64,000 nucleotides of DNA, from the NCBI RefSeq assembly GCF_009938015.1, contig NZ_AP021884.1, positions 2,405,501 through 2,469,500 of the forward strand. The letters run 5' to 3'. The position numbers were made by a program, and so were the translations under genes. The notes beneath the pieces are model-generated. The model had not been told where the DNA came from, did no database searches, and saw only the letters and a program-made list of their open reading frames with translations. How positions within the stretch are numbered: position 1 is the stretch's first letter; each line of letters begins with the position of its first letter. Of the stretch, positions 36,593 to 61,324 are shown in pieces. Origin of the DNA: Sulfuriferula plumbiphila (lineage in GTDB: Bacteria; Pseudomonadota; Gammaproteobacteria; Burkholderiales; Sulfuriferulaceae).

Positions 36593-36668
<76 letters not shown>

Positions 36669-36760: not shown

Positions 36761-36834
36761 GGCGGGGTGGCAGAGTGGTTATGCAGCGGCCTGCAAAGCC
36801 GTGGACGCCGGTTCGATTCCGACCCCCGCCTCCA
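36761..36834 (+). tRNA. tRNA-Cys(GCA)
   Basis: A 74-nt cloverleaf: acceptor GGCGGGG/CCCCGCC with encoded CCA, anticodon loop CTGCAAA (anticodon GCA), T arm GTTCGATTC. It lies 92 bp after tRNA-Gly and only 4 bp before the tRNA-Leu relic. Confidence 0.96.
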
Positions 36835-36838
36835 TTCC

Positions 36839-36879
36839 GCCCGGATGGTGGAACAGGTAGACACAAGGGACTTAAAATC
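36839..36879 (+). pseudogene. 5' half of an intron-less tRNA-Leu(UAA)
   Basis: From the acceptor strand GCCCGGA through the D arm to the anticodon loop: AAGGGACTTAAAATC reads through the U34/A35 position with no intron and then diverges (TGTTTT...), so the 3' half with variable arm, T arm and acceptor is missing. It occupies the normal third place of a Gly-Cys-Leu cluster. The 21 bases GGTAGACACAAGGGACTTAAA are shared with the complete tRNA-Leu downstream except where the intron begins. It cannot form a tRNA and appears to be the remains of the original gene. Confidence 0.85.
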
Positions 36880-37037
36880 TGTTTTGTCAAGTATTTTTCT
36901 CTCGTGCCACCAGGGCGGAAGGTCAGTAGTGACAATGGTTTGTGAACATCCAAGGCGTAGCTTCGCGGCTCGGCTTGATGGTCAGGAGCCAACCAGGAGC
37001 CAGTAGAGAGAGTGTAGGCTCCTGAGCATCATGTAAT

Positions 37038-37348
37038 GCCCGAGTGGTGAAATCGGTAGACACAAGGGACTTAAACAATTTGAGCCTTCGGGTGGAAACG
37101 CCCGAAGTGAAGCCCGTCAAAGTCGGCGAAAGCCCTGGATGCTACGGCATCCGAGCCAACGCCGAGCCAAGCCCAGGCCCAACGCTTGGGAAGGTGTAGA
37201 GAGCAGACGGCGGGCACCTACGGCCGCAAGGCTATGGTGAAGGCGTGCTCCAGACCACGAACAGCGCATGCGCTGGCGGCGAAAGCCGAAGTGGTAAGAA
37301 AATCCCTCGCCGTAAGGCGTGCCGGTTCGATTCCGGCCTCGGGCACCA
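37038..37348 (+). tRNA. tRNA-Leu(UAA) with group I intron
   Basis: 5' exon 37038-37072 (acceptor GCCCGAG, D arm, anticodon stem AGGGA, loop CTT up to U34) and 3' exon 37299-37348 (AAAATCCCT, variable arm, T arm GTTCGATTC, acceptor CTCGGGC, discriminator A, encoded CCA). Joined, they form an 85-nt class II tRNA with anticodon UAA. The two exons pair correctly in acceptor and anticodon stems, so the gene should be functional after splicing. It differs from the upstream relic in acceptor and D-arm bases, so it is not a simple duplication of it. Confidence 0.93.
37073..37298 (+). ncRNA. Group I intron (IC3-like) in tRNA-Leu(UAA)
   Basis: 226 nt, inserted after U34 as in cyanobacterial and plastid tRNA-Leu(UAA) introns. 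The 5' end AAACAATTTGAGCC nearly matches the Anabaena intron start; the last base is G. Core elements are visible: P (GTCGGCGAAAGCC, near 37122), Q (CGCCGAGCCAAG, near 37160) pairing as P4, R (GGTGTAGAGAGCAGACGG, 37193-37210) and S (AAGGCGTGCTCC, 37240-37251) pairing as P7 (GAGCA/TGCTC). The R-to-S block is also very like the Azoarcus tRNA-Ile intron. No homing endonuclease is encoded. Self-splicing is predicted, not shown. Confidence 0.93.
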
Positions 37349-37530: not shown

Positions 37531-37782
37531 TCAGTTTTCTACAGGCTCTTTGTGCTTTAGCCGGATAGCCGTGGGTTTCTTGAACCCTCGATCTCCCGCC
37601 ATGAACGCCTCAAGCATATGCGGGATCAGCGTCGCCGCATCGACCGCCTCGCCGTAGGCCTGTGCATGCAGCGCGGCGTAGCGGTCGAGGTCAGCCTTGA
37701 GGCTGGTCGGGCACGTAAAGGTCAGCTTGATGCTCTCGGTCTTGGGCAGCGGCCCCAGCCGCAGCTTGCGCGTAGTGCTCAT
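37531..37782 (-). CDS. DUF2274 family protein
   Basis: An 83-residue protein (MSTTRKLRLGPLPKTESIKL ...) of the DUF2274 family, which is regularly encoded directly after trbI in Tn4371-type ICEs. It has a beta strand followed by a helical part (LKADLDRYAALHAQAYGE), compatible with a ribbon-helix-helix DNA-binding or accessory protein; its role in transfer is unknown. The start overlaps the trbI stop by 4 bp. It is the last gene of the transfer operon and marks the left limit of recognisable ICE sequence. Confidence 0.82.
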   Translation of the reverse strand: MSTTRKLRLGPLPKTESIKLTFTCPTSLKADLDRYAALHAQAYGEAVDAATLIPHMLEAFMAGDRGFKKPTAIRLKHKEPVEN

Positions 37783-39071
37783 CGCGAAGTCCCCCGATTG
37801 AAGAACAGTGGCTGATAGGGCCGCAGCACCAGATCCCGATTGACGATGATGCGCACGGGCAGGCCCGGCCGCTCCGTCAACGTCGGCTGGATGTTGAGAT
37901 TGCGCCGGGTCATCTCCTGTCCGACCTGGTTCACGCTGTCCTGAAGGCTGTCGCGCCCGGCGATGACGATCCGATTGCCATCCTGGCGGCTCTCCGGCGC
38001 AGCCAACTCGGCGCCGACGCCCAGCAGCGTCGTCAGCGCCGCGCCGGCAAAGATGCGGTCCCAATGCCAATCGACGCCATCCTCCAAACCGGCGTAGCCG
38101 GCCGGGTCGGTGCCGGCCAAGTTGTCCAGCGTCAGTGATGAAGTGTCGGGTAGGATGATCCGATTCCACACCACCTGCACCCGGCTCTGCCCGTAGCTCA
38201 CCTGGCTGTTGTAGCGGCCGAGGATGCGCGAGCCTTGCGGGATCAGCAGAAACTTGCCGGTAGCCGTGTCGTAAATCGGTTCCGTCACCGTGGCGATCAC
38301 GTCGCCCGGCAGATCGGACTTGATGCCCGTGACCAGCGCGCCAGCGATCACCGTCCCGGCCATCACCTGGTAAGGTGAAGCCGGCATTTTCAGGTTCCCG
38401 GAATTACGGGTTTCCGTAGTTCCGGCTTTCAGGAACGCCTCTTTCTGGTCCTGCCGGTTCTGCACAGCGGTCGGATCGGCCGGTTGGGCCGCCGTCGAGG
38501 CCGGCCCGGCAGCCATCGGATCGAAGCCCGCAAGGCCCGATGCGGGACTGGCCGTGGCCACCTGCGTTGGCGCGACAGCGGCGCGCTGGTTGCTGGAACG
38601 GAAGAACACCGATGCCCCTGCGGCCGCTTCCGCTTCCTTGCGCTGTGCGTCGTGCTCGGCATTAGCCGGAGCGTGGCCGGGCGGGGTGTAGCTGGGTGTT
38701 ACCGGCTGCTGCGACTTCACGATGGCTGGCCCCAAGTCGCCCGGCAGCGGCGGCCCCAGTTCGGGTACTTGGGGAGGCAAAGCCCGCGGCAGCTTGGAGT
38801 AATCGGTTGGAAGCTGGTCCAGTCCTTCCGAGCGCGAAACGCGATCCACGTTGTAAAGCTCGGCCTGTTCGCTTGCACTGCGCTTGCGCGGTTGCAGCGA
38901 CCACATGGTTGCGCCCAACACAGCTACGGCGAGGCTACCGGCCAGAACCATCAATGTGCGCCGGTTCAAGCGCGTCACCGGACGCGGCTGGGCGCGCAGC
39001 GCCACGTTCTCTGGCGCGACCTTCGGGGCGGCGTCGGGAACAGGCATATCAAGGACATCGTTCTGGCTCAT
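37779..39071 (-). CDS. trbI: Mating-pair formation protein TrbI (VirB10-like)
   Basis: A 430-residue inner-membrane protein that spans the periplasm and joins the inner- and outer-membrane parts of the type IV secretion channel. It has a cytoplasmic N-terminus, one membrane helix (LMVLAGSLAVAVLGATMWSL, near residue 40), a Pro-rich periplasmic linker, and the C-terminal TrbI/VirB10 barrel with YQVMAGTVIAGALVTGIKSD and FLLIPQGSRILGRYNSQVSY. It starts 2 bp after trbG and overlaps DUF2274. Confidence 0.93.
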   Translation of the reverse strand: MSQNDVLDMPVPDAAPKVAPENVALRAQPRPVTRLNRRTLMVLAGSLAVAVLGATMWSLQPRKRSASEQAELYNVDRVSRSEGLDQLPTDYSKLPRALPPQVPELGPPLPGDLGPAIVKSQQPVTPSYTPPGHAPANAEHDAQRKEAEAAAGASVFFRSSNQRAAVAPTQVATASPASGLAGFDPMAAGPASTAAQPADPTAVQNRQDQKEAFLKAGTTETRNSGNLKMPASPYQVMAGTVIAGALVTGIKSDLPGDVIATVTEPIYDTATGKFLLIPQGSRILGRYNSQVSYGQSRVQVVWNRIILPDTSSLTLDNLAGTDPAGYAGLEDGVDWHWDRIFAGAALTTLLGVGAELAAPESRQDGNRIVIAGRDSLQDSVNQVGQEMTRRNLNIQPTLTERPGLPVRIIVNRDLVLRPYQPLFFNRGTSR

Positions 39072-39073
39072 GG

Positions 39074-40099
39074 TCAGTTCCCCCGTGCTCCGACTGCGAC
39101 CCCATCGGTGCGCTCAATGCGCACCACTTCGCCCCCATCGCTTCCCTTTCCACCGCCCAAGCGCAGTTCGGCCGCGCCGAACAGCCGATCCACGATGTAG
39201 TACGGCGAGCGGAAACGGTAGTTCACCAGTTGTCCGTCGCCCTGAGCACCGATCACGAACAGCGGCGGCAGCTCGCCCTGGGCGATGCCCGGCGGGAACT
39301 GGATGTAGACCTTCTCGCCATCGTCGAAGGCGCGCAGCGGCTTCCACGGCGCATTGCTGCCGCTGATCGCGTAGCGGAAGCGAATCTTTTCCAACGACAG
39401 GCCGGTATCGACCGGTGCGGTCGCCTGCGCAGCCTGTGCCTGGCGCTGCAAGGCCAGCATCCGATCTTTCGGGTATTCCCACGACACCGAAGCCATCCAG
39501 GCGCGTTCCGTCGAGGTCAGCTCGATCAGGTACGTGCGCCGACTGGTGGTGATGACCAGATTGGTCTTGAGGCCCGAGCGGATAGGCTTGACCAGCACGC
39601 TGACGCGCAACGCATCACCGGCGCCGCTGGAGGTGTCACCGACAATCCAGCGCACGGTATCGCCGGCGGCAACCGTTACGAGTTCCTCGCCGGGTTGGAG
39701 AGAGATCACCGTTACCCGTCCCGGCGCCGCATAGACCTGATACAGCGCGCCATCGGTAAAGGGCCAGACCTGGATGGCGTTGACGTAGCCCTCGCGCGTG
39801 GGCGCGATGCGCGCCTCGGCGTTGGCACGCGAGACCCGCAGCTTTTCATCGGCGGGCTCAGGTGCAGTCTTGACCTCGATGCTCTCCGGCAATGGTTTCA
39901 TCTGCGCCGGCATCGGCAGCACCTTCGGCACCTCCACCACTTCAACCGGCTTGGGCGGTTCGGGCAGTGGCTGGGCCTGCACCGGCTCATCAAGCGAGAT
40001 GGCTGGCGGCGGCGTGCCCTTCGTGGCGCAGCCCAGTAGCGACAGTGCAGAGGCTGCAAGCATCAACACGAAAGCGTAAAAGCGGAAAGACTGGTTCAT
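39074..40099 (-). CDS. trbG: Mating-pair formation lipoprotein TrbG (VirB9-like)
   Basis: A 341-residue outer-membrane channel component. The N-terminus has a lipoprotein signal with LLGC as lipobox, followed by a Pro-rich linker (PVQAQPLPEPPKPVEVVEVP) and the VirB9/CagX domain: EGYVNAIQVWPFTDGALYQV, LVITTSRRTYLIEL, and the C-terminal GAQGDGQLVNYRFRSPYYIV. I use the ATG at 40099, which overlaps the trbF stop by 4 bp; the upstream extension lies inside trbF. Confidence 0.92.
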   Translation of the reverse strand: MNQSFRFYAFVLMLAASALSLLGCATKGTPPPAISLDEPVQAQPLPEPPKPVEVVEVPKVLPMPAQMKPLPESIEVKTAPEPADEKLRVSRANAEARIAPTREGYVNAIQVWPFTDGALYQVYAAPGRVTVISLQPGEELVTVAAGDTVRWIVGDTSSGAGDALRVSVLVKPIRSGLKTNLVITTSRRTYLIELTSTERAWMASVSWEYPKDRMLALQRQAQAAQATAPVDTGLSLEKIRFRYAISGSNAPWKPLRAFDDGEKVYIQFPPGIAQGELPPLFVIGAQGDGQLVNYRFRSPYYIVDRLFGAAELRLGGGKGSDGGEVVRIERTDGVAVGARGN

Positions 40100-40800
40100 G
40101 GCTTGGCTCCTTCGGTGGCATCGAGTTCGCGGCTCCACGACAGTCCGTTGACGTAGATGCCCAATGGGTTCTTGCGCAACCGCTGCTCGGTGCGCGGGGT
40201 TTGCAGGACGGTGGAAATCACGGCGTTCCAGCGCTCGGTGCCGACCGGCGCTCCGTTGACGAAGCGCTGCTCGGTCCAGCGCACGTTGAAAGACGCGTCG
40301 CTGGCGCGCACGACGCTGGTGATCTGCACCGTGACCGACTCCTTGCCGACGCGGACAAACGGGTCATGGGTGCTCGCGTACTCGTTGAGCACGCCCGCGC
40401 CGCGATCGGTGGTGTAGTCGTAGGCATCGAGCCAGTTCTGCCGCACGACGATGGGGTCGATGGACAGCGAACGAACCAGCACGACGAAGTGCGCCAGGTG
40501 ATAGGCGATCTGCGCATCGTTCGGTCGGTACGGTGTGGCGGCTTCGCCGACCGCCCGAACTTGGCCGGCCTGATCCACCTCCACCACGTAGGGCGTGACG
40601 ATGGACTGCGCCGAACGCCAGACCAGACCGCCGGCCATCAGCAACGCGAGCGACAAACAGCCGAAAGCCATCAGCCGCCAGTTCTTGGCCTGCACGCGGG
40701 CCGAGCCGATGCGCTCGTCCCACAGCTGCGCGGCGGATTGGTAGGGAGTGGCAGGCTGCGGCGTATCGGCATAGCGCACCTGCGGTCGTTTGAATCGCAT
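40096..40800 (-). CDS. trbF: Mating-pair formation protein TrbF (VirB8-like)
   Basis: A 234-residue bitopic inner-membrane protein: cytoplasmic N-terminus, one helix (LMAFGCLSLALLMAGGLVW), and a periplasmic NTF2-like VirB8/TrbF domain (YHLAHFVVLVRSLSIDPIVV, NVRWTEQRFVNG, NPLGIYVNGLSWSREL near the end). It acts as a nucleation factor for the secretion channel. It follows trbL by 24 bp and overlaps trbG. Confidence 0.92.
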   Translation of the reverse strand: MRFKRPQVRYADTPQPATPYQSAAQLWDERIGSARVQAKNWRLMAFGCLSLALLMAGGLVWRSAQSIVTPYVVEVDQAGQVRAVGEAATPYRPNDAQIAYHLAHFVVLVRSLSIDPIVVRQNWLDAYDYTTDRGAGVLNEYASTHDPFVRVGKESVTVQITSVVRASDASFNVRWTEQRFVNGAPVGTERWNAVISTVLQTPRTEQRLRKNPLGIYVNGLSWSRELDATEGAKP

Positions 40801-40824: not shown

Positions 40825-42204
40825 TCAATCGTCGGAACTGTGCAAACTCGGGCCGCTGCTCGAACCACCGCCATCGCCTCCGCGCAACGTGTGGGCGGCC
40901 GTCGTGGCTGCATGGCTGATCTGCTGGCGGCGGTGCAGGCGTTTGGCCCAGGCGGGCTGCGCCTGTTGCTGCGGGTCCGCAGCGCCGGAACTGGCTTCGC
41001 TGGCACTGGATTGGCCTGACGTGGCGGCGCCTCCAGATGCCGGCCCTGCCTCGTCGGAACGGAAAGCAGATGCCGCGCGCTCCTTGAGCGAGCGCATCCC
41101 GGCGGCGGCCTTTTGGCCAACGGCCTGCGCGCCGGTCTTGGCAACGTTGCCCACGCCGGCAGCGGCACCCTTGAGGCCACCGCCCGCTGCTGCGGAACCG
41201 GCTTGATAGGCCGAGCGCGCGCTGCCTGCGGTCGAGGCCGCAGCACGCGCACCGCTGGCGGCCATCTTGGCGGCGGCGGGTGCCATGCGCGCCCCGGCCA
41301 CCACCGCGCTACCCACGCCAGTCGCGGCAGCACCGAGCGCGACAGCCGTACCGGCTGCGCCCATCGCTGCACCAGCCATCGTACCCGCGCCAAGCTGCGG
41401 AGCACCGGACACCAGGCCGGTAGCGATGCCGGGACCGAAGATGCCGAGTGCTAGCATGGCGAGCGAGGCCAGCATCACCACCAGCGCGTGATCGACGGAC
41501 GGTTCACTGGGCGTGACCTGGAACTCCGCGAACAGCCCCGTTCCAATGCCCACGATCACAGCCAGCACCAGCACCTTGATGCCCGAGGACACCACGTTGC
41601 CGAGCACCTTTTCGGCAAGGAAGGCGGTTTTGTTCCAGAGCGCGAACGGCACCAGTACGAAGCCGGCGAGCGTGGTCAGCTTGAACTCGATCAGCGTGAC
41701 GAAGAGCTGCACCGCCAGCACGAAGAAGCTGATGATGACGATCAACCAGGCGAGGAACATCACCACGACGGGCGCGATGTTGATGAACACCTCCGGGAAA
41801 CCGGCCATCTCGCTGATCTGTTGCAGGATGGGCGCAGCGGCATCGATGCCGGTCTTGGCGAGGCGCCCCGGCTGCAGGAAGGTCGCCATGCTCATGGTCG
41901 AACCGGAAGCCGTCAGGCCCAGGCCGGCGAACGATCGGAACACGATGCTCGCCAGCCAGTTGAAGTTGCCGATGATGTAGGCGAAGGCGCCGACGTAGAG
42001 CACCTTGCGCAGGAGCTTGGCCATCACGTCTTCGCCCTGGCCGGTGGCGTGGCCCAGCGCCCAGTAGAGGCCGGCCAGGGTCATGTCGATCGCCACCAGC
42101 GTCGCGGTCAGGAAAGCGACTTCACCGTGCAGCAGGCCGAACCCCGAATCGATGTACGTGGAGAAGACATTGAGGAAACGGTCGATGACGGAGACGTCGT
42201 TCAT
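40825..42204 (-). CDS. trbL: Mating-pair formation protein TrbL (VirB6-like)
   Basis: A 459-residue polytopic membrane protein. The first 270 residues carry at least six hydrophobic segments (for example LYWALGHATGQGEDV between two of them, FVLVPFALWNK, IFGPGIATGLVSGAP), and the last 190 residues are an Ala/Gly/Ser-rich, probably disordered tail, as usual for TrbL. It forms part of the inner-membrane pore of the transfer channel. It lies 11 bp after trbJ and 24 bp before trbF. Confidence 0.9.
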   Translation of the reverse strand: MNDVSVIDRFLNVFSTYIDSGFGLLHGEVAFLTATLVAIDMTLAGLYWALGHATGQGEDVMAKLLRKVLYVGAFAYIIGNFNWLASIVFRSFAGLGLTASGSTMSMATFLQPGRLAKTGIDAAAPILQQISEMAGFPEVFINIAPVVVMFLAWLIVIISFFVLAVQLFVTLIEFKLTTLAGFVLVPFALWNKTAFLAEKVLGNVVSSGIKVLVLAVIVGIGTGLFAEFQVTPSEPSVDHALVVMLASLAMLALGIFGPGIATGLVSGAPQLGAGTMAGAAMGAAGTAVALGAAATGVGSAVVAGARMAPAAAKMAASGARAAASTAGSARSAYQAGSAAAGGGLKGAAAGVGNVAKTGAQAVGQKAAAGMRSLKERAASAFRSDEAGPASGGAATSGQSSASEASSGAADPQQQAQPAWAKRLHRRQQISHAATTAAHTLRGGDGGGSSSGPSLHSSDD

Positions 42205-42215
42205 GGCCGCATCCG

Positions 42216-42944
42216 TCAGTTGCCGTAGAAGTTCACAGATTGCGGCGTGTACGCCGTGCCACTGCCGATGAAGCGGCGCGTCACCTCGCGTCCACGCTCA
42301 ACAGCGGCGGCTTGCCGAGCCAGTTCCAACGAAGCCGCACGGCCTTGCGTGAGCTGGAGCTGCTGGGTCTGGATGGACTGCTTGGCTTGCAGGGCCAGGA
42401 GCTGATTGGTGGCCTGCATGGCCTGCAAGGCGCCGGTGGCCGATTGGCTCTGGTCGACCAGATCGGCCAGCACGCCCTCATCCTGGTTCAGGTTCTGCGA
42501 TACCTGCGCCTGCATGCGCATGGCGGTCTGCAAGCCCTGCAGCGTGTTTTGCCAGCGCTGGTGCGCATCCTGGAACATCTGGTTGCCGCTCACGCTGGCG
42601 GCATACTGCTCCGGGTAGAGTTGCGCGAATTGCTGGTCCATGTTCTGGATGTCGAAGGCCAGCCCACGTGCTTGGGAGATCAGTTGCCGCGTCGTGTCGA
42701 GGTTGGCCCGCAGGCGATTGACCACGTTGAAAGGCAGGCTTGCGAGGTTGCGAGCCTCGTTCATCAAGGACTGCGCTTCGTTCTGAAGCTGCTTGATCTG
42801 GTTGTTGATCTGCTCCAGCGTGTGTGCGGCAGTCAGGATGTTCTGGGCCAGATTCGTGGGGTCGACGACGACCCATTGCGCTTGTGCGATGGGTACGGCG
42901 CCAATCAAGGCAGCAACAGCAACGGCAAGAAGACGTTTTTTCAT
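42216..42944 (-). CDS. trbJ: Mating-pair formation protein TrbJ (VirB5-like)
   Basis: A 242-residue exported protein starting MKKRLLAVAVAALIGAVPIA with signal-peptide cleavage near AQAQ. The mature part is helical and Gln-rich with long coiled-coil-like segments (ALQAMQATNQLLALQAKQSI), typical of TrbJ/VirB5, a minor pilus-tip or adhesin component. I use the ATG at 42944, which overlaps the trbE stop by 4 bp; the upstream 75 bp of open frame lie inside trbE. Confidence 0.9.
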   Translation of the reverse strand: MKKRLLAVAVAALIGAVPIAQAQWVVVDPTNLAQNILTAAHTLEQINNQIKQLQNEAQSLMNEARNLASLPFNVVNRLRANLDTTRQLISQARGLAFDIQNMDQQFAQLYPEQYAASVSGNQMFQDAHQRWQNTLQGLQTAMRMQAQVSQNLNQDEGVLADLVDQSQSATGALQAMQATNQLLALQAKQSIQTQQLQLTQGRAASLELARQAAAVERGREVTRRFIGSGTAYTPQSVNFYGN

Positions 42945-45391
42945 GGTGAAACCTCCAGAGGTTGGGAAGCAAGGAAGGACGCGGCCGAGGGAACGGACGG
43001 CAACAGGTCGGCCGCCCAATCGAGGCCACGATGGCGCAGCCAGGCACCGGCGAATCCCGGTGTTCCGGCATCGCGCAGCACGTTGTCGATAGCGCGTTGG
43101 TCCTGAGGCGTCGAGGCGCCCGCAAAGGCGAGCGTGACCGGCCCGAGGTCAAGATCGAACAGGCGGTTGCCCAGCCGCGACTGGTAGTAGTAGTCGCGCT
43201 TGGGCTGGGCGGTGGCGACGATCTCGATTTGCCGGCTGTTCAGCCCGAAGCCCTCGTAGATCGTGCGGATCTGCGGTTCAGTGGCCTGCGGGTTGGGCAG
43301 GAAGATGCGACTCGCGCAGCTCTCAATGATCGCGGGCGCGATGGTCGAGTCCTTGATGTCGGCCAGTGACTGCGTGGCAAAGATGACGCTGACGTTCTTC
43401 TTGCGCAGCGTCTTGAGCCATTGGCGAATGCGCGCCGCGAACACCGGGTCGTCAAGGAACAGCCAGGCTTCATCGAGGATCAGCAGCGTCGGCGCGCCGT
43501 CGAAACGCTCATCGAAGCGTGCGAACAGATAGCCCAGCACGGCCAATACAGCGGCCTTGCTGTGCATCAGTTCCTCCATCTCGAAGCCCTGAACGTCGCC
43601 CACGCCCAGCCGGTCGCTGTCGGCATCCAGCAGCTTGCCGTGCGCGCCGCCGAGCACGTAGGGCGCGAGCGCTTGGCGCAGCACGTTGGATTGCAGCAGC
43701 ACCGACAGGCCGGTGAGCGTGCGTTGCTCCACGGGGGCCCCCGCGAGACTGCCGAGTGCCGACCAGATGGCCACCTTCTCATCGGGACCGATGGCAATGC
43801 CCTCGTGCCGCAGGCGGCCTTCGACCCACTCGGCCGCCCAGGTGCGATAACCTTCCCGATCGATGCGGGCGAGTGGCTGGAAAGCGATCGCACCATCGCC
43901 CCCCAGGTCGTAGTGCTCGCCGCCCAGGCCGAGAATGGTGGCGCGCATCGAACGCCCCATGTCGAAGGCGAAGATGCGTGAGCCGGGATAGCGGCGGAAC
44001 TGCATCGCCAGCGTGGCGAGCAGAACCGACTTGCCCATCCCGGTCGGGCCAGCCACCAGCGTATGCCCCACGTCGCCGATGTGCGTCACCAGCCGGAACG
44101 GCGTCGCGCCCTCGGTGCGCGTGACGATCAGCGGCGGGCCATCGAGGTGATCGTTCTTTTCCGGTCCGGCCCACACCGCCGATACCGGCATCAGGTGCGC
44201 GAGATTCAGCGTCGAGACGATGGGCTGGCGAACATTGGCATAGGCATTGCCCGGCACCGACGACAGCCAGGCCTCCACGGCGTTCAGCGTCTCCGGGATG
44301 GTCACGAAGCCACGCCCCTGAATGACGCGCTCCACCATGCGCAGCTTCTCGTCGGCCGTATTGGCGTCGGCATCCAGTACGGTCACTGTCGCAGTGACGT
44401 AGCCGAAGGCAACCTGATCGCTGCCCAGCTCCTGCAAGGCCGCATCCGCGTCGGCAGACTTGTTGCTGGCATCGGTATCGACCAGCGGGCTTTCCTGTTG
44501 GAATATGGTTTCGCGCAGCAGCGCGAGGACGTTCTTGCGCTTGGCGAACCATTGCCGGCGCAGGCGGCCCAGTTCCTTCTCGGCCTCGGCCTTGTCCATG
44601 CACAGGAAGCGTGTGCTCCAGCGGTAGGCGAAACCGAGCCGGTTGAGGTCGTCCAGAATCCCCGGCCAGGTCGAGGTCGGAAAGCCGCGTATCGTCACAA
44701 CGCGCAGGTGCTGGTCGCCCAGCATGGGCGCGAGACCGCCGACCAGCGGCGCATCAGCAAGCAGCGCATCAAGGTGGAACGGCACTTCCGGCACCAACAC
44801 CGAATAGCGCCGCGCTGAGACGGTCGCGTGCAGGTAGGTCAGCGTTGCTCCGTCGTCCAGCCAAACGATCTCCGGCATCACGCCGTCGAGCAGGTCATAG
44901 ATGCGGTCGGTTTCCGCGACGAAGGCCGACAGGCGTTCGCGCCAGTCCACGCCCTGCGTGGGCGTGTTCTCGTAGAGCATCTTGGCTGCGCGGGCGCGGG
45001 ACTCCTCGGGCGGCAGGAATTGCAGAGTGAGGTGATAGCCGCTCTCGAAGTGGTTCCCCGATTCCTCGAAGGTCGCGCGTCGCTCCTCGTCCACCAGCCA
45101 GGACAACGGCTCCGGGAAATCCGAATGCGGATAGTCCGCTGCGGGCCGGCGTTCGGCTTCGACGAACAGCGCCCAGCCAGTGCCGATCCGGCGCAGTGCG
45201 TTGTTCAGCCGTGCCGTGGTGGCAATCAGCTCGCCTTGGGTTGCACTGTCCAGGTCCGGCCCACGAAAGCGCGCCGTGCGCTGGAAACTGCCGTCTTTGT
45301 TGAGCACCACGCCCGGCGCGACCAGCCCGGCCCAAGGCAGCCAGTCGGCGAGCAAGGCTGGGCGCTGGCGGTATTCGGCGAAGTTCATCAT
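42941..45391 (-). CDS. trbE: Conjugal transfer ATPase TrbE (VirB4-like)
   Basis: An 816-residue ATPase that energises pilus assembly and substrate transfer. It starts MMNFAEYRQRPALLADWLPW (two adjacent ATGs at 45391 and 45388), has the CagE/TrbE N-terminal domain and a RecA-like C-terminal domain with Walker A VAGPTGMGKSVLLATLAMQF and Walker B LLILDEAWLFLDDP, and a conserved FATQSLADI segment. The longer open frame upstream overlaps trbD and is not coding. It follows trbD by 10 bp. Confidence 0.95.
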   Translation of the reverse strand: MMNFAEYRQRPALLADWLPWAGLVAPGVVLNKDGSFQRTARFRGPDLDSATQGELIATTARLNNALRRIGTGWALFVEAERRPAADYPHSDFPEPLSWLVDEERRATFEESGNHFESGYHLTLQFLPPEESRARAAKMLYENTPTQGVDWRERLSAFVAETDRIYDLLDGVMPEIVWLDDGATLTYLHATVSARRYSVLVPEVPFHLDALLADAPLVGGLAPMLGDQHLRVVTIRGFPTSTWPGILDDLNRLGFAYRWSTRFLCMDKAEAEKELGRLRRQWFAKRKNVLALLRETIFQQESPLVDTDASNKSADADAALQELGSDQVAFGYVTATVTVLDADANTADEKLRMVERVIQGRGFVTIPETLNAVEAWLSSVPGNAYANVRQPIVSTLNLAHLMPVSAVWAGPEKNDHLDGPPLIVTRTEGATPFRLVTHIGDVGHTLVAGPTGMGKSVLLATLAMQFRRYPGSRIFAFDMGRSMRATILGLGGEHYDLGGDGAIAFQPLARIDREGYRTWAAEWVEGRLRHEGIAIGPDEKVAIWSALGSLAGAPVEQRTLTGLSVLLQSNVLRQALAPYVLGGAHGKLLDADSDRLGVGDVQGFEMEELMHSKAAVLAVLGYLFARFDERFDGAPTLLILDEAWLFLDDPVFAARIRQWLKTLRKKNVSVIFATQSLADIKDSTIAPAIIESCASRIFLPNPQATEPQIRTIYEGFGLNSRQIEIVATAQPKRDYYYQSRLGNRLFDLDLGPVTLAFAGASTPQDQRAIDNVLRDAGTPGFAGAWLRHRGLDWAADLLPSVPSAASFLASQPLEVSP

Positions 45392-45401
45392 GGCTCGGTC
45401 C

Positions 45402-45671
45402 TCACACGTCCAGCAGCGGCTTGTGCTTGATGTGGCGGGCGAACACCTGCATGAACTGCGCGTCGACGCGGGCTCCCCACATCGCCAGCGAGTGGCCAAC
45501 GATCCAGAGCACCATGCCCGGAATCCACAGTTGCAGGCCCAGGCCCACGGCGGCGGCCAGCGTGCCGTTGGCGATCGCCACGGTGCGCGGCGCACCGCCC
45601 AGCAGGATCGGCTCGGTCAGCGAGCGATGCAGCGGAATCTCAAAGCCCGGCAGGTCGTTGGCCGTGCTCAT
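45402..45671 (-). CDS. trbD: Mating-pair formation protein TrbD (VirB3-like)
   Basis: An 89-residue membrane protein (MSTANDLPGFEIPLHRSLTE) with two adjacent hydrophobic segments (about residues 32-62), typical of TrbD/VirB3, which docks onto the TrbE ATPase. The start overlaps the trbC stop by 4 bp. The frame is open far upstream, but only the 89 residues match the family. Confidence 0.9.
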   Translation of the reverse strand: MSTANDLPGFEIPLHRSLTEPILLGGAPRTVAIANGTLAAAVGLGLQLWIPGMVLWIVGHSLAMWGARVDAQFMQVFARHIKHKPLLDV

Positions 45672-47082: not shown

Positions 47083-47543
47083 GAGGCACGCTCCTGGGCT
47101 TCGGCCAATGCCGCCGCTTCGTCCAGCCGCGCAGAGTCGGGTTGAAGTTCCTCCACCACGTCGCGCACAAGACTGCGCCCACGCAATAGGTGACGGCCGA
47201 GCTGTTCGACGAACTGCTCGAATCGCGCCTTGCCTTGGGCGCGGGCCGCTTCCTGGTGGGCTTCAGGCACCGGCGTGCTGACGGTCAGGAAGTAGCGAAC
47301 GAATAGCGCCAGCGTCTCGATCTCGATGTTCTGGTCGCGCTCCAGCCGCTCGAACTGGCGTGACAGCCGATCAAGCCGCTTGGCGATGGCCGCCTCGCGC
47401 TGATCGCCCGCATCGGGCGACAACCAGGACGCCAGTGCCGCCGCGACGATGGACGACTTGGACACACCTTTCTTGGCGGCCAGCTCGTCCAGACGTTTCG
47501 CGTGCTCGGGTGGAATGAACAGGTTGAGGCGGTATTGGCTCAT
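47079..47543 (-). CDS. CopG-type ribbon-helix-helix regulator
   Basis: A 154-residue protein with an N-terminal RHH domain (YRLNLFIPPEHAKRLDELAA and KKGVSKSSIVAAALASWL), the usual CopG DNA-binding fold, and a helical C-terminal extension (DRLSRQFERLERDQNIEIET) probably for oligomerisation. Its place between traG and trbB is conserved in Tn4371-type ICEs, where it is thought to regulate transfer genes. Overlaps both neighbours by 4 bp. Confidence 0.85.
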   Translation of the reverse strand: MSQYRLNLFIPPEHAKRLDELAAKKGVSKSSIVAAALASWLSPDAGDQREAAIAKRLDRLSRQFERLERDQNIEIETLALFVRYFLTVSTPVPEAHQEAARAQGKARFEQFVEQLGRHLLRGRSLVRDVVEELQPDSARLDEAAALAEAQERAS

Positions 47544-49525
47544 AGCTGGAGTCCGTCGTCGGGGTCGAGGGATGCCAGCCGGGCCGTGCGCTGCATGGCC
47601 GGGTCGAGCTGGCGGGGAAGCGGCAGCGGCAAATCGTCGTCATCGAGCAGTGCCAGGTCGTTGCTCGCTGGCTCCTGTTTTGGGTGGTACTCGGCGACCT
47701 CGGACAGCTCTGGCTGACGCCGTGGCCCGCCGTCATCGGCGGTGGCCGTGTCGCTGCCGGTCAGGCCCACAGCGGCGGGGACTGCCATGCCGCTCCAGTC
47801 GTCGGCGCGTGTCGGCGGTGCATCGGCATAGCGCCCGGCTGCGTGCGCGGGCGGCGGCAGTACGCGCCGCTTGAAGTTCACGTCCGCGAAGTAGCGCAGC
47901 TTCTTCGCCTTGATCGGTGCCATGCTGGACACCATCACCACGGCCTCGTCGGGCGGGAGCTGCATGACCTCACCAGGTGTAAGCAGTGGCCGCGCCGTTT
48001 CCTGCCGCGACACCATCAGGTGCCCCAGCCACGGCGCGAGCCGGTGCCCAGCATAGTTGCGCTGCGCGCGCAACTCCGTGGCCGTGCCCAGAGTCTCGGA
48101 AATGCGCTTGGCTGTTCGTTCGTCGTTGGTGGCGAACGTCACCCGGACATGACAGTTGTCGAGGATCGAATGGTTCTGACCGTAGGCTTTGTCGATCTGG
48201 TTGAGCGACTGCGCGATGAGGAAGCTGCGAATCCCGTAGCCGGCCATGAACGCCAGCGCCGTCTCGAAGAAGTCGAGTCGGCCAAGTGCCGGGAACTCGT
48301 CGAGCATCAACAGCAGTTTGTGGCGACGCGCGATGCCATCCGAGCCATCCAACGATTCAGTGAGCCTCCGACCGATCTGGTTGAGGATCAAGCGCACCAA
48401 CGGCTTGGTACGGCTGATGTCGGACGGCGGCACGACCAGGTACAGCGATACCGGATGCTCTGCCGAAATCAAGTCGGCGATGCGCCAGTCGCAGCGCGAC
48501 GTGACTTCGGCCACTGTGGGGTCGCGGTATAGGCCGAGGAACGACATGGCCGTGGACAGCACACCCGAACGCTCGTTGTCGCTCTTGTTGAGCACTTCGC
48601 GCGCGGCCGAGGCGACGACGGGATGCGGGGCATCACCCAGGTGCCGCGTCGTCATCATCCGGTGCAGCGTCAACTCGAATGGGCATGCCGGGTCGGACAA
48701 AAAGTTGGCGACGCCGCGCAGCGTCTTGTCTTCGCCGGCATAGAGCACATGCAGGATGGCGCCGACCAGCAGCGCGTGCGAAGTTTTCTCCCAGTGGTTG
48801 CGACGCTCCAGCGCACCTTCCGGGTCCACCAGGATGTCGGCGATATTCTGCACGTCGCGCACCTCATGCGCGCCGCGCCGCACCTCCAGCAGCGGGTTGT
48901 AGGCCGCTGAATTCGTATCGGTGGGGTTGAACAGCAGGCAGTGCGAGAAGCGCGAGCGCCAACCGGCGGTGATGGACCAGTTCTCGCCCTTGATGTCGTG
49001 GATCACGGTGGACGCGGGCCAGGAGAGCAGCGTTGGCACCACCAGGCCGACGCCCTTGCCCGAGCGCGTCGGTGCGAAGGTCAGGACGTGTTCGGGGCCT
49101 TCGTGACGCAGGTATTGCCCGTCATGCAGGCCGAGGAAGACGCCGGCCGGTTGGGTCAGTCCTGCCTTGCGGATGTCACTGGTTTCGGCCCAGCGCGCCG
49201 AACCATAGGTCGTGACCAGCTTCGACTGCCGCGAACGCCACACCGACATGGTGATGGCGACGACGACGGCGATCAACCCGCTGCCGCCAGCGATCGCGCC
49301 GCCGATGTCGAAGACGTTGGGCGCGTAGGCATCGAAGAAGAACCACCACTCGAACAGCCGCCAAGGGTGATACACCGGCGTGCCGAAGAAATCAAACCAA
49401 GGCGAGCCAAGACGTAGTTGGTAGCCCAAGGCGGCGGCTGTCCATTGCGTGGCACCCCACACGCCGGCGATCACGATGCTGAATACAGCAACGATCTGCC
49501 CGAACAGCACACCTTGACCTTGCAT
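47540..49525 (-). CDS. traG: Conjugal transfer coupling protein TraG (VirD4-like)
   Basis: A 661-residue type IV coupling protein that brings the relaxase-DNA complex to the channel. Two N-terminal membrane helices (LFGQIVAVFSIVIAGVWGAT; AIAGGSGLIAVVVAITMSVW), Walker A TFAPTRSGKGVGLVVPTLLS, Walker B region LLLMLDEFPALGRLDFFE, and YGIRSFLIAQSLNQIDKAYG. I start at the ATG at 49525, which has GGGAGG upstream. It is the first gene of the traG-copG-trbB...trbI-DUF2274 transfer operon. Confidence 0.95.
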   Translation of the reverse strand: MQGQGVLFGQIVAVFSIVIAGVWGATQWTAAALGYQLRLGSPWFDFFGTPVYHPWRLFEWWFFFDAYAPNVFDIGGAIAGGSGLIAVVVAITMSVWRSRQSKLVTTYGSARWAETSDIRKAGLTQPAGVFLGLHDGQYLRHEGPEHVLTFAPTRSGKGVGLVVPTLLSWPASTVIHDIKGENWSITAGWRSRFSHCLLFNPTDTNSAAYNPLLEVRRGAHEVRDVQNIADILVDPEGALERRNHWEKTSHALLVGAILHVLYAGEDKTLRGVANFLSDPACPFELTLHRMMTTRHLGDAPHPVVASAAREVLNKSDNERSGVLSTAMSFLGLYRDPTVAEVTSRCDWRIADLISAEHPVSLYLVVPPSDISRTKPLVRLILNQIGRRLTESLDGSDGIARRHKLLLMLDEFPALGRLDFFETALAFMAGYGIRSFLIAQSLNQIDKAYGQNHSILDNCHVRVTFATNDERTAKRISETLGTATELRAQRNYAGHRLAPWLGHLMVSRQETARPLLTPGEVMQLPPDEAVVMVSSMAPIKAKKLRYFADVNFKRRVLPPPAHAAGRYADAPPTRADDWSGMAVPAAVGLTGSDTATADDGGPRRQPELSEVAEYHPKQEPASNDLALLDDDDLPLPLPRQLDPAMQRTARLASLDPDDGLQL

Positions 49526-49555
49526 CCTGGCCTCCCGATTTCTCCTGCGCGGCAA

Positions 49556-49746: not shown

Positions 49747-50022
49747 TCAGAACTTGGGCGGCTCCTTCGGCGGCGTGTAGGGTGTTTTGCCATCGCCGAG
49801 AAAGCGCCGATTCGTCGCTTCGGCTACTCGGTTGCAGAGTTCATCACCGAGCTTTGTTCGATCTGTCTTGCATTGCTGGCGCAGTGCCTTCAACCGTTCG
49901 GGATTGGCGGCGAGCGATTCAACGGATTCGATTGGTGCAGAGCTGTTGCTTGTCGCGGTCGGTTCGGGCTTGCCACAGGCAACCAACGTTGTAGTAAGCA
50001 GAAACGGGATGATCTTCTTCAT
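49747..50022 (-). CDS. eexN: EexN-family entry-exclusion lipoprotein
   Basis: A 91-residue lipoprotein: signal MKKIIPFLLTTTLVAC with lipobox LVAC, then a short mature part with two further Cys residues (RQQCKTDRTKLGDELCNRV) and ATNRRFLGDG, the pattern of the EexN family found in conjugative elements. Entry-exclusion proteins stop redundant transfer into a cell that already holds the element. The start overlaps the LysR stop by 4 bp, so it is carried on the cargo transcript rather than the transfer operon. Confidence 0.8.
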   Translation of the reverse strand: MKKIIPFLLTTTLVACGKPEPTATSNSSAPIESVESLAANPERLKALRQQCKTDRTKLGDELCNRVAEATNRRFLGDGKTPYTPPKEPPKF

Positions 50023-50963
50023 GGCTCGATTTCCTCTGGTGGATCAGTTCGTTCAAGTGCAGCTGAGGTCTTTCCTCTTGGGGGATCAATGGCAAGGACT
50101 CGTTTGATGAAACGAGCCAAGGCATCTGACGGCTCGCTATCCGCACGCAACAGGTAAGTCGTGAGCATGTGCGAACGACCAGCCAGCGGTCGGGCCACCA
50201 CGCTGGGTTCACGGCTGGCGGCAATCTGCGAAGCGCCCGCCAACCCGAGCGCAAAACCTGCCGACACCAGGGTCATCATCAGATCGAAGGACGCGACTCG
50301 TTCGGCGATCAACGGCTCCATACTTGATTGACGCAAAGCGCGATCAATTTGGCGAGCGTGTCCTTCGCATGTATGCGCATCGCCGAGTGCCAAGGGATAG
50401 CGCAACACCTCGTCCAGCGGTACACGCTTGTAGGCGAGCAATGGGTGACGTGCCGGAACCGCCACCATCAATGGATCGTGCCAAATGGGTTCAGCAACAA
50501 GTCCATCACCGGCTTCATCCAACTGAGCAAACCCTACGTCGTAGAGATCGTCGTGCAGCCCCTTGATCTGCTGGGACAAGGGAACCTCGGTTAGGCGAAT
50601 CTCGATCTCAGGCTCTTCCTGCCGGCAAAGTGCCAAGAGGGCTGAGAAGCAGGTCGGCGTGATGCCGTCAGACAAGGCAATGCGCAATTGGCCATGGAAG
50701 CCGTTGGCGGCGGCTTTTACGCTGTCCCGAGCCTGCTGCAAGGAGGCGAAGACGCGAGGCACGTGTTCCAAGAACATCCGGCCCGCGCGCGTGAGTCGGG
50801 TACTGCGGGTGGTGCGAGCAAATAGCTGAACACCCAGGTCTTCTTCCAGTTCTTTGATGGCGCGTGAAAGCGGCGACTGTTCGATATGTAAGCGCTCGGC
50901 CGCCCGGGCGAAGTGGAGTTCTTCGGCCACTGCCAAGAAGCAGCGTAAGTGCCTCAACTCCAT
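50019..50963 (-). CDS. LysR-family transcriptional regulator
   Basis: A 314-residue regulator: N-terminal winged helix-turn-helix (LRCFLAVAEELHFARAAERL, then HIEQSPLSRAIKELEEDLG) and a C-terminal substrate-binding-like effector domain (LRIALSDGITPTCFSALLAL). LysR proteins usually control an adjacent gene; here it is downstream of the aminotransferase gene (24 bp) and upstream of eexN (overlap), so it is probably part of the same transcript. Its ligand is unknown. LysR genes at this point of Tn4371-type ICEs are common. Confidence 0.87.
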   Translation of the reverse strand: MELRHLRCFLAVAEELHFARAAERLHIEQSPLSRAIKELEEDLGVQLFARTTRSTRLTRAGRMFLEHVPRVFASLQQARDSVKAAANGFHGQLRIALSDGITPTCFSALLALCRQEEPEIEIRLTEVPLSQQIKGLHDDLYDVGFAQLDEAGDGLVAEPIWHDPLMVAVPARHPLLAYKRVPLDEVLRYPLALGDAHTCEGHARQIDRALRQSSMEPLIAERVASFDLMMTLVSAGFALGLAGASQIAASREPSVVARPLAGRSHMLTTYLLRADSEPSDALARFIKRVLAIDPPRGKTSAALERTDPPEEIEP

Positions 50964-50987
50964 AAAAGCATCCCTTGTCCTTTCAGC

Positions 50988-52160: not shown

Positions 52161-52186
52161 GAGCTAGAGATTCCAGGGAAGTGGGC

Positions 52187-52423
52187 TTACATATCAAGGG
52201 GCGCAGGCTTGAACAGCGGCTCGCTGCTCAAGAGCCGCACGCCGTCGGATGTGCTTTCGACCAGACGCCTTTCGTCATAGGCGACCAGCAATTCCAACTG
52301 GTAGCCGTTCCGCTTCAAGCAGTCGGCGATTTCCTTGATGGCTTCACGCGACGATGGCGTACTGGACTCGAAGTGCCCAAGCAGCCGGTCGCGGTTGTGG
52401 ATGATGAGGCGGTAGGTATTCAT
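52187..52423 (-). CDS. Small protein of unknown function in PLP cassette
   Basis: A 78-residue protein ([20 protein letters not shown] ...). It looks like a single alpha/beta unit: a strand, a helix with [18 protein letters not shown], then a strand and [15 protein letters not shown]. No known motif, no signal peptide. Its start overlaps the stop of the kinase-like gene by 4 bp, so it is translationally coupled and likely functions with it. I do not recognise the family. The longer open frame upstream lies inside the kinase gene. Confidence 0.7.
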
Positions 52424-54128: not shown

Positions 54129-54192
54129 GTGTAAGCCTCGCTATCGGAAAGCCCATCGCACTCAAGGTGGTGCAGGCGTCGTCGAATTAATG

Positions 54193-54232
54193 TATAATTG
54201 TCCTAGGTCAAACTTTAACATGTCCTAGATCA
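54193..54232. promoter_or_regulatory. Divergent promoter and MocR direct-repeat operator
   Basis: Two direct repeats, TGTCCTAGGTCA (54199-54210) and TGTCCTAGATCA (54221-54232), start 22 bp apart, that is two helical turns, just before the mocR ATG. A TATAAT box lies at 54193-54198 on the plus strand. Tandem direct repeats of this spacing are the typical target of MocR/PdxR dimers. The second repeat ends 2 bp before the mocR start codon, so binding should also repress mocR. Confidence 0.75.
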
Positions 54233-54234
54233 TT

Positions 54235-55599: not shown

Positions 55600-55610
55600 A
55601 AAGGGAAATC

Positions 55611-58931: not shown

Positions 58932-60890
58932 TCAGATCAGTGATGGTCCGCGTTGCCGCTCAAAGTCCCAAGACACGCCACTGCCGCGAACCGTCGCTGC
59001 GAGTTGGCGCCCCAAGCGTTGTTCGATCACCGGCCTCCATGGAATCAGACTGAATCCCATGCCGTCATCAAGCATAGCGTAGCGCCCGCTAGCAAGCGTG
59101 ACGCTGCGCCGGTAGATACCGCTCACGCGCTGCCCGTCGGAAACCGGCCGGTGCTGCAGGCCGGTTTCCGCTTCTATGTCCTGCGTGGCCTTCGTTAACT
59201 CGCGGTTGCGCAGCGTCGTCAGCAAGTCGCGCGCGAGGACGACGCGCTGCCCCCGCCGCTCGGCCAGCCCCTGTTCGGTCAGGAAATCGGCGCGCTGTTG
59301 CAGTGCGTCCTTGACCTCGCTGCCAAAGCCCAGATCACCCAGCCTCTTGCCGCCGCCGATCAACTGCTGGTCGAGCCAGGTGGCGCCGATCACGCGGGTT
59401 TGCCGCTCGATGGGCAGGTGTGATTTCAGCGCCACCGCCACGCCGCCGTCGAGGCGCTGAGCATCGTACTGGCGGCCTCGCTCGGGCAGGCTCTCAGGCA
59501 CACGCCAGACGCCTTCGGCCATGCGCTCCACGATGCCGATGCGGCGCAGGGCTTCCAGCCGCCGTACATGTGCCGCCACCACTTCGTGTGGGTCGCGGTC
59601 CGGCATGGCCTTTCCCTGCACGATGGCCAAGTGATGATCGGTGCGGTACACACCATCGACGGCCAACGCCGCGATGTTTTTGTCAGCCGCGCGCACGTCG
59701 GTCGAGCCTTTCACCTCCACCACGGCACCAGTTGGGTATTGCTCCAATTCCGATCGCGGCGGTAGTGCAACGTAGTGCGCCTTACCATCGGTCCCGTCGA
59801 TGACGAGGTAGCCCTTGTCGTACAGCTCGTTGGCCAGCCCCTTGCCGGCGACGCGACCAACAATGGCACGGCTTTCCTCGCCGGCCTGGAACACGGCCAG
59901 CTCGCGCTGCTTGCCGCTCATGGCGCGATGCATGGTGCGGATGATGTCCCCGCGCTCACCCATGGCCCGCAGAGTAGGCTCGGCCTCGGCACGGATGGCC
60001 CATACGCCGGGTTGCTGCTCGGTCGCCAGCCCCATGCGCTGCAAGCGCTGCAGACGGCCGATCAGCATTTGCCGCTGGCGTTGCAGCCGGGGTTCGGCCA
60101 ACGTTTCCGTCCGCACCAGGCCATCTGCGGCCTCGCGCTGCAAGGTGCGATCCAGTCCCGTCCACCGCTCCTGATCGACTTCGCGCTGCATGGCGCGCTG
60201 GATGTCCAACTCGGTGCGCAGCCCCAGCCAATCGGTCGCCAGTTCAGCGGCCCGGCGGCGCATCCCCTCGGCGACGTAGTCGCGGGAAATGATGAGGTCT
60301 TTTCCGGTGTCGTCCTTGCCGCGCAGGACGATGTGGGTATGCGGGTTGTCGGTATTCCAGTGATCCACTGCCACCCAGTTCAGCCGTGTGCCCAGGTCGG
60401 CCTCCATGCGCGCCATCAGGTGGCGGGTATACGTGCGCAGGTCGTCGAGCTCTTCGGCATCCTCTGGCGATACGATGAAGCGAAACTGGTGCCGATCCTC
60501 GCGTCCGCGTTCCTCGAAAGCGGCGGTGTCCACCGCGTCGGTTGTCGGGCCGTAGGCATGGCCCGACCCGCCCTGGCGATCAACCCCTTCGCGCTCGATG
60601 TAGCGCAGGTGCGCGGCGGTTGAACGCGGCCCAGCCTTGGCTAGATTGATCAGCCGCGCCTTGATCGTCACGCGACGGGCGTTTGGCGTGAGCGAGACCC
60701 CGGCGAAGCGGGCCGCGACATGGCCGCGCCCCAGCCGGGAACCCGGCCGCTGGCCGACTTTGCCGACCGTCTTGCCGAGCTTGGCGCCAGCCTTGCTGGT
60801 CTGGCGCAGCACCTTGTTGATGAAGGCATCGCCGCGCCGTTTCGGCGCACCAGGCCGCGCCCGGAAACGATCGTCGTCTTGATTGCTCAT
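58932..60890 (-). CDS. Relaxase (VirD2/TraI-type with DUF3363)
   Basis: A 652-residue mobilisation protein that nicks oriT and leads the strand into the recipient. The N-terminal catalytic domain has motif III WVAVDHWNTDNPHTHIVLRG (metal-binding His triad), and HLRYIEREGVDRQG upstream of it; the rest is the DUF3363 region that is typical of Tn4371-type ICE relaxases, ending with YAMLDDGMGFSLIPW. I use the ATG at 60890 (MSNQDDDRF); the frame is open upstream through the intergenic region. The catalytic Tyr is not pinpointed. Confidence 0.9.
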   Translation of the reverse strand: MSNQDDDRFRARPGAPKRRGDAFINKVLRQTSKAGAKLGKTVGKVGQRPGSRLGRGHVAARFAGVSLTPNARRVTIKARLINLAKAGPRSTAAHLRYIEREGVDRQGGSGHAYGPTTDAVDTAAFEERGREDRHQFRFIVSPEDAEELDDLRTYTRHLMARMEADLGTRLNWVAVDHWNTDNPHTHIVLRGKDDTGKDLIISRDYVAEGMRRRAAELATDWLGLRTELDIQRAMQREVDQERWTGLDRTLQREAADGLVRTETLAEPRLQRQRQMLIGRLQRLQRMGLATEQQPGVWAIRAEAEPTLRAMGERGDIIRTMHRAMSGKQRELAVFQAGEESRAIVGRVAGKGLANELYDKGYLVIDGTDGKAHYVALPPRSELEQYPTGAVVEVKGSTDVRAADKNIAALAVDGVYRTDHHLAIVQGKAMPDRDPHEVVAAHVRRLEALRRIGIVERMAEGVWRVPESLPERGRQYDAQRLDGGVAVALKSHLPIERQTRVIGATWLDQQLIGGGKRLGDLGFGSEVKDALQQRADFLTEQGLAERRGQRVVLARDLLTTLRNRELTKATQDIEAETGLQHRPVSDGQRVSGIYRRSVTLASGRYAMLDDGMGFSLIPWRPVIEQRLGRQLAATVRGSGVSWDFERQRGPSLI

Positions 60891-61324
60891 GTGGTGTCTC
60901 CATCCAAGATCGGCGCAGTCCAGCGAGCGAAGCACGCGCCTTCGCCAATGCCGGTGCGGCATTGCGCACTCTCGCGGCACGCCGCTGCCCCTTGGCGCGT
61001 GCCGCGCCACCCCCATGTGCAGACAAGGTTTTCAAGCGGCCGGGTGCCGCAACCTTTTATCTTGCCTTCCGCCTTTGCCCCTCGCTTTCGCTCTGGGCGT
61101 CGGCGGCCCGGTGGCGCTGTGCTGCTTGCAGCCAGCCCGCCGGCGAACGCGGCCACGGCGACCGGCCGGGCGCGTTCGAGGCAAGACGCCTGCGCGTGGG
61201 AAGAGGGCTCCGGATGCTGAGCGAAGAGCGGTGCGAATGCACGCGCACGGCCCGCGCAACGACACGGCAACGGCCAGCGACGACACGCCCAATGGCACGA
61301 TGAAGCGCAGCGAATCGGTAGCCA
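60891..61324. other. Gene-free stretch upstream of the relaxase; candidate oriT region
   Basis: 434 bp between traF and the relaxase gene with no convincing gene; open frames here (minus 61032-61562, 60887-61270, 61057-61362) are Arg/Pro-rich and lack domains, though a short frame starting MATDSLRFIV has a hydrophobic opening. It contains an inverted repeat GCGGCACGC/GCGTGCCGC (60974-61005) about 85 bp upstream of the relaxase start. Relaxase-proximal intergenic DNA with inverted repeats is where oriT is usually found, but I cannot identify a nic site. Confidence 0.5.

Follow-up and report, generated by a model that had tools for sequence, protein, structure and literature searches.

Organisation of the locus

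The window analysed is a 64,000-nucleotide stretch of the Sulfuriferula plumbiphila genome (RefSeq GCF_009938015.1, contig NZ_AP021884.1, positions 2,405,501 to 2,469,500; the genome is designated G000). A native row of tRNA genes is found on the plus strand, beginning with tRNA-Gly(GCC) (36593..36668; Rfam 72.2 bits) and tRNA-Cys(GCA) (36761..36834; Rfam 61 bits), both also identified by ARAGORN. These are followed by the 5′ half of a tRNA-Leu(UAA) gene (36839..36879, plus strand), which is broken after the anticodon loop and was recognised from a direct repeat. The matching 3′ half lies outside the window, 46 kb away, at G000:C1:2488653-2488708 and is followed by frames read as rimP, nusA and infB, names that were not checked by a search. 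When the halves are joined at the shared 9-bp core CTTAAAATC they give a perfect tRNA-Leu(taa). The core is present at 36871..36879 (plus strand, attL) and is repeated 46,282 bp away (G000:C1:2488653); within the intervening DNA the 9-mer occurs only at the two ends.

The DNA between the two halves is an integrated conjugative element (ICE) of 46 kb. Inside its left arm (36880..37037) the motif AGGAGCC is found at 36984 and 36995, with an inverted copy at 37017; these are possible integrase arm sites, a function that is inferred. A second, complete tRNA-Leu(UAA) gene lies 158 bp inside the left core and in the same orientation as the broken one, and consists of a 5′ exon (37038..37072), a 226-nt intron (37073..37298) and a 3′ exon with CCA (37299..37348), all on the plus strand. 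The ICE genes that follow are all on the minus strand, and encode a DUF2274 protein (37531..37782; PF10038), which is the first gene inside the element, TrbI/VirB10 (37779..39071; PF03743), TrbG/VirB9 (CagX) (39074..40138; PF03524), TrbF/VirB8 (40096..40800; PF04335), TrbL/VirB6 (40825..42204; PF04610), a TrbE/VirB4-like ATPase (42941..45595; PF03135 and PF19044), a TraG/VirD4 coupling protein (47540..49555; PF02534) and a relaxase-like DUF3363 protein (58932..61016), in which DUF3363 is over its cut-off while the Relaxase domain (PF03432) scored 21.5 bits, under its cut-off of 24.6. A tyrosine integrase (PF00589, PF13356) lies beside the right end, outside the window (G000:C1:2487275-2488477, minus strand). 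The cargo at 50019-56360 includes a class III aminotransferase, a pyridoxal-kinase-like protein (Phos_pyr_kin), an alanine-racemase-N protein and a GntR/aminotransferase regulator, perhaps a vitamin B6-related set.

The intron-bearing gene is the only complete tRNA-Leu(UAA) found in the genome. ARAGORN, run on all 42 tRNA matches of the genome, gave the leucine anticodons CAA, UAG, CAG and GAG but no UAA, and the only place matching the tRNA-Leu(UAA) anticodon arm with under 2 mismatches is the broken copy. A search for promoters and terminators near the gene revealed no sigma-70-like promoter and no terminator-like match.

The group I intron

The observation of an intron in this gene, made in the initial annotation, is confirmed. 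ARAGORN with introns allowed finds tRNA-Leu(taa) at 37038-37348, with the intron inserted between U34 and A35, so that the core CTTAAAATC is interrupted, and ending in G, and the joined exons fold as a standard tRNA-Leu; without introns allowed, the gene is missed. Rfam at the gathering threshold finds no intron. Below that threshold the group I model RF00028 aligns at 37063-37253 with 37.3 bits (E = 1.1e-7 in 1.1 kb and 8.3e-8 in the whole genome, where it is the only match up to E = 10). As the gathering score is 50, the outcome that the initial annotation had set in advance as counting against a group I intron, a covariance-model score below threshold, is formally observed. The cut-off is, however, a curated threshold and not a biochemical feature, and it is strict: among 14 control genomes RF00028 gave a match at E ≤ 0.01 in 5 and passed the cut-off in 2.

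The fold was therefore tested on an alignment of 48 introns from ICEs, other genomes and two plasmids. The helices, which include P3 at 37112-37118/37209-37215 and P7 at 37199-37205/37246-37251, were drawn on the window's intron, which favours the drawn structure in the control with displaced partners. They pair in 92.1% of cells, and 43 of 60 pairs have a change on both sides; none of 500 shuffles reached this, and sliding the partner by 1-3 columns lowered pairing to 30-42%. In the conserved core with the P3/P7 pseudoknot, P4-P6 and P8, pairing was 96.1% for P3, 97.2% for P4 and 100% for P7, where 3 of 6 pairs have changes on both sides. The single-sequence fold of the gene has a z-score of -4.6, with a minimum-energy structure that is not the group I core throughout. 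The bulged A and G-C pair in P7, the U-G pair at the 5′ splice site and the terminal G, which are features of group I introns, are all present in the window's UAA intron. Neither splicing of the transcript at 37072/37299 nor self-splicing with guanosine was assayed. Of the introns collected, 63 of 63 spliced genes fold as tRNA-Leu (50 UAA and 13 CAA; the partial copies at loci L155, L158, L163 and L331 were left out; L numbers denote retrieved loci and G numbers genomes).

Intron-bearing tRNA-Leu genes in the order and in other replicons

At least 27 of 399 genomes of the order, S. plumbiphila included, hold an intron-bearing tRNA-Leu. In some (G302 and G171) the gene appears to lie right beside a tRNA-Gly/tRNA-Cys pair, as in a native tRNA cluster, and in G328 (L158 6331-6871) a tRNA-Leu(UAA) has a predicted intron of 455 nt, about twice the usual length. 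Only 4 of the 27 genomes (G000, G350, G352 and G193) show a broken tRNA-Leu half within 330 nt upstream of the intron-bearing gene; elsewhere the intron exists without this ICE and is thus probably older than its use here. In these 27 genomes the S. plumbiphila integrase has full-length relatives in G352 and twice in G350 (Variovorax sp. Root473), a partial one in G164 and broken pieces on another contig of G352. In G352 and in the first ICE of Variovorax sp. Root473 the same left end, TGTTTTGTCAAG, follows a tRNA-Leu(UAA) half broken at the same base, and the 3′ half lies beside the integrase. The second ICE of Root473, with a 68% identical integrase, splits tRNA-Leu(CAA) and carries an intron-bearing tRNA-Leu(CAA). 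Each of the two elements of this strain has a replacement of its own type, and with up to 2 mismatches no intact copy of either native gene was found. Group I introns are also found in tRNA-Leu(CAA) at L133, L145, L148, L322-L328 and L343-L345, where the pair at the 5′ splice site would be C-G instead of the usual U-G.

BLAST searches with the gene were made against plasmids, phages and E. coli genomes. Of 72,556 plasmid records, 1287 match the gene, most at about 68% identity, in Escherichia, Klebsiella, Salmonella, Acinetobacter and others. The one such record inspected (LR890662.1; L089 4001-4277) has it, unannotated, beside aac(3)-IId, and it folds as tRNA-Leu(UAA) after splicing; it looks like a hitchhiker of one widespread region. 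A conjugative plasmid of Bradyrhizobium sp. ISRA443 (NZ_CP094524.1; L090 4001-4284) has an intron-bearing tRNA-Leu(UAA) about 750 bp from trbI, the same neighbourhood as in the ICE. The record of an uncultured 595-kb phage (LR756511.1, 409169-409953) matches both ends of the gene at 76% over 785 bp and perhaps encodes an intron-bearing tRNA-Leu with a longer intron. A pattern search of viral contigs gave 30 stretches, which were not examined further.

Insertion sites and replacement genes of related elements

A scan of GTDB contigs with four aligned integrases was used to select the best 80 of 215 integrase relatives. The DNA before each integrase shows the loop of tRNA-Leu(UAA) in 22, the loop of tRNA-Leu(CAA) in 9, a degraded site in 1 (L212) and a run of A before a GC-rich hairpin (terminator type) in 48, of which 46 were assigned by motif and two (L225 and L252) by reading. 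The terminator-type site is like, but not identical to, the published Tn4371 repeat TTTTTCAT; whether it represents Tn4371 proper was not tested. The intron-bearing gene was found in 19 of 22, 5 of 9, 0 of 1 and 7 of 46 genomes searched for the UAA, CAA, degraded and terminator types, respectively. L267 was not searched and L268 shares its genome with L253, giving 46 terminator-type genomes; a partial match in the genome of L247 was not counted, and the genome of L209 was counted from the survey of the order. An intron-bearing tRNA-Leu is thus present in 24 of 31 genomes with tRNA-Leu-type integrases against 7 of 46 with terminator-type ones (Fisher p = 5.6e-8, not corrected for kinship). The intron-bearing gene of a genome need not lie in the element that was found; in the case of L252, one of the 7 terminator-type genomes, it is that of a neighbouring CAA-type element. 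At this locus (L252 and L325; Bordetella ansorpii, G435:C9) a terminator-type ICE appears, by reading, to have inserted exactly at the left end of the CAA-type element, such that two ICEs stand in tandem.

Of 33 intron-bearing copies inspected, 27 have a broken tRNA-Leu half 166-206 nt upstream in the same orientation, and in 27 of 27 the anticodon agrees (20 UAA, 7 CAA). The six without a readable half are L196, L214, L225, L252 and second copies in the genomes of L271 and L235. Kinship among the elements means that these counts are not independent. UAA-type elements in other genera carry the gene at 85-97% identity. Joining the left and right ends of 30 elements restored a tRNA-Leu of the expected anticodon in all 30; L196 and L214 could not be joined. 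Judged by equal lengths, both ends lie on one contig in L200, L202, L203, L204, L208, L210, L213, L226 and L271, nearly so in L231 (lengths differ by 100), and in G000, G352 and both ICEs of Root473. In about 11 of the 30 joins the ends lie on different contigs and their pairing is assumed. AGGAGCC pairs 11 bp apart are found in both arms of the S. plumbiphila ICE, with similar motifs in part of the relatives and none in others such as G352 and L197.

RF00028 finds no intron in the genomes of L195, L201, L206, L212, L217, L221, L230 and L237. In L217, L221, L230 and L237 (two Rhizobiales isolates or assemblies, an alphaproteobacterial MAG and an unplaced proteobacterial MAG), however, a complete tRNA-Leu(CAA) without an intron starts 152-166 nt after the broken half. 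The loop of this gene reads TTCAAAA where the half reads CTCAAAA, and its anticodon stem differs. A replacement gene is therefore present there too, and again its DNA lacks the core. The UAA-type L195, L201 and L206 are metagenome assemblies whose left end may be missing and L212 has a degraded site; these four are unexplained. In the integrase tree (quick search, SH-aLRT) the tRNA-Leu types stand on one side of a branch with support 100 and the terminator type on the other. The fewest changes of site are 4 in all, hence 3 between UAA and CAA, one of which rests on the long branch of L265. The tRNA carried agrees with the site in the elements on both sides of these changes.

Discussion

The interpretation given in the initial annotation is partly supported. 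A group I intron is present at the position used in cyanobacteria and plastids, as had been proposed, and it was horizontally acquired, since it is cargo of an ICE. The suggestion that such introns are exceptional in this order, known betaproteobacterial tRNA introns being mostly in other tRNAs, is not supported by the survey of 399 genomes. The broken native gene, with its 5′ half 199 bp upstream and its 3′ half 46 kb away, had been missed. The proposed likeness of the 5′ end to the Anabaena intron and of the R-S core to the Azoarcus tRNA-Ile intron was not tested with those sequences.

The best explanation, in which we have fairly good confidence, is that a Tn4371-like ICE recombines at the anticodon loop (CTTAAAATC) of the host's single tRNA-Leu(UAA) gene, splits it, and provides a complete gene that replaces the lost tRNA. 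In this view, the group I intron interrupts the replacement gene exactly within the recombination core, such that the spliced RNA has the anticodon loop needed for translation but the DNA lacks the sequence used by the integrase, and the ICE would not recombine with its own replacement gene; excision would restore the native gene. The anticodon loop cannot change freely in the RNA, so splicing would be an apt way to keep the RNA and lose the DNA site. The sequences themselves demonstrate the split host gene, the absence of any other complete tRNA-Leu(UAA) among those found, the replacement gene in the matching orientation, its recurrence with a matching anticodon, the restoration of tRNA-Leu at the joined ends, the restriction of the core to the two ends of this ICE and the group I fold. 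Splicing in the cell is inferred, as are transcription from the promoter of the native row reading through attL, given that no promoter of the gene's own was recognised, the role of the AGGAGCC pairs as arm sites, which might explain the fixed distance, and the retention of the intron because an uninterrupted replacement would be a target. Replacement of the tRNA gene is well supported and very likely, whereas masking as the reason for the intron is only more likely than not; expression and loss of integrase activity were not examined. Counting against the reading are that only 4 of the 27 intron-bearing genomes of the order show a broken half within 330 nt upstream, that four elements do without an intron, that six of 33 copies lack a readable half, that L195, L201, L206 and L212 showed no intron at all, and that in the CAA genes the pair at the 5′ splice site would be C-G instead of U-G.

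The main alternative is replacement without masking, in which the ICE carries a spare tRNA-Leu because it breaks that of the host, and an ancestor took the gene from a host that already had the intron, which does nothing for the ICE. The frequency of intron-bearing tRNA-Leu genes in the order, most of them not beside a broken half and some beside a tRNA-Gly/tRNA-Cys pair, is consistent with this, as are the four elements that use an intronless gene. Yet every one of the 27 replacement genes beside a half has the intron at the core, in both isoacceptors and in the alphaproteobacterial elements L231 and L265, and the four intronless genes have a changed loop and stem. An intronless replacement with an intact core, the finding that would have told against masking, was thus not seen in any replacement gene read here, and we consider this alternative unlikely.

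That the intron-bearing gene is dead cargo or a relic, neither spliced nor used, with UUA read in some other way, is suggested by the RF00028 score below its cut-off, the lack of a promoter match and the untested splicing. It is very unlikely given that all the spliced genes fold as tRNA-Leu, that the core covaries and that no other tRNA-Leu(UAA) was found. Also very unlikely is that this is the host's own gene with a recently arrived mobile intron and that the broken half and the ICE are unrelated neighbours. Native-looking intron-bearing genes do exist in relatives, but here the native gene is identified by its two halves, the intron-bearing gene lies inside the att cores and recurs there in many genera, and no open reading frame of a homing endonuclease fits within 226 nt; this reading is already contradicted.

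The element has the trb mating genes, coupling protein, relaxase-like protein and tyrosine integrase bounded by short repeats of a Tn4371-family ICE. The core CTTAAAATC is the reverse complement of GATTTTAAG, the published 9-bp att repeat of ICEKKS102Tn4677; this ICE and ICEbphKF708 (Tn4371 family) are similar in size (near 46-62 kb), have trb genes, a relaxase and an integrase, and tRNA-Leu is given as the main target (PMC11448139, PMC6563109, PMC9960961). Homology of the integrase and core genes to Tn4371 itself was not tested, and the sequences of the named elements were not examined for the gene. The word intron does not occur in these three papers and no replacement tRNA was seen mentioned; PMC9960961 places the site at the 3′ end of tRNA-Leu, while here it is the anticodon loop. 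PMC8627217 adds only that related genes are shared with Tn4371. Literature searches showed no report of an ICE with an intron-bearing replacement tRNA, although they were confined to open-licence papers, which is weak evidence of absence, and it is not excluded that the gene was noted in the 2012 description of ICEKKS102Tn4677. The cyanobacterial and plastid tRNA-Leu(UAA) intron occupies the same gene and insertion point (PMC4033280, PMC4476775), but is a vertically kept intron of the host's own gene, whereas here it is ICE cargo with a sister form in tRNA-Leu(CAA); common descent was not tested, as no tree with cyanobacterial introns was made. A tRNA-Leu(UAA) group I intron has been published from a gammaproteobacterium. 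Islands and ICEs that restore a tRNA gene by carrying its 3′ end also integrate without loss of tRNA function, but here the native gene stays broken and a different complete gene takes over.

The proposal that split or intron-bearing tRNA genes resist integration was made for archaea (Randau and Soll 2008, cited in PMC4033280; related model in PMC3293823; reviewed in PMC8371274, which also notes that intron-bearing tRNA genes can serve as sites in Thaumarchaeota). There it is a proposed host defence with protein-spliced introns, while here the mobile element itself carries the shielded gene, with a group I intron. If the masking reading is correct, a family of conjugative elements uses a self-splicing intron as a mask at the DNA level and can carry a working copy of the tRNA gene it destroys in a form that its own integrase cannot recognise, because the anticodon loop exists only in the spliced RNA. 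The tRNA carried has changed together with the target (UAA or CAA), and some lineages would reach the same end by altering the loop instead.

Bacterial tRNA introns have no agreed use. Here one sits at the very bases where an element recombines, in a gene that replaces the one the element breaks, and this recurs in many genera with matching anticodons. This gives a group I intron a plausible job, offers a bacterial case in which the proposal that tRNA interruptions shield genes from integrases can be tested directly, and explains how an element can use the most constrained part of a tRNA gene as its site. It would also mean that the reading of UUA, and in Variovorax sp. Root473 perhaps of UUG as well, depends on a ribozyme carried by a mobile element.
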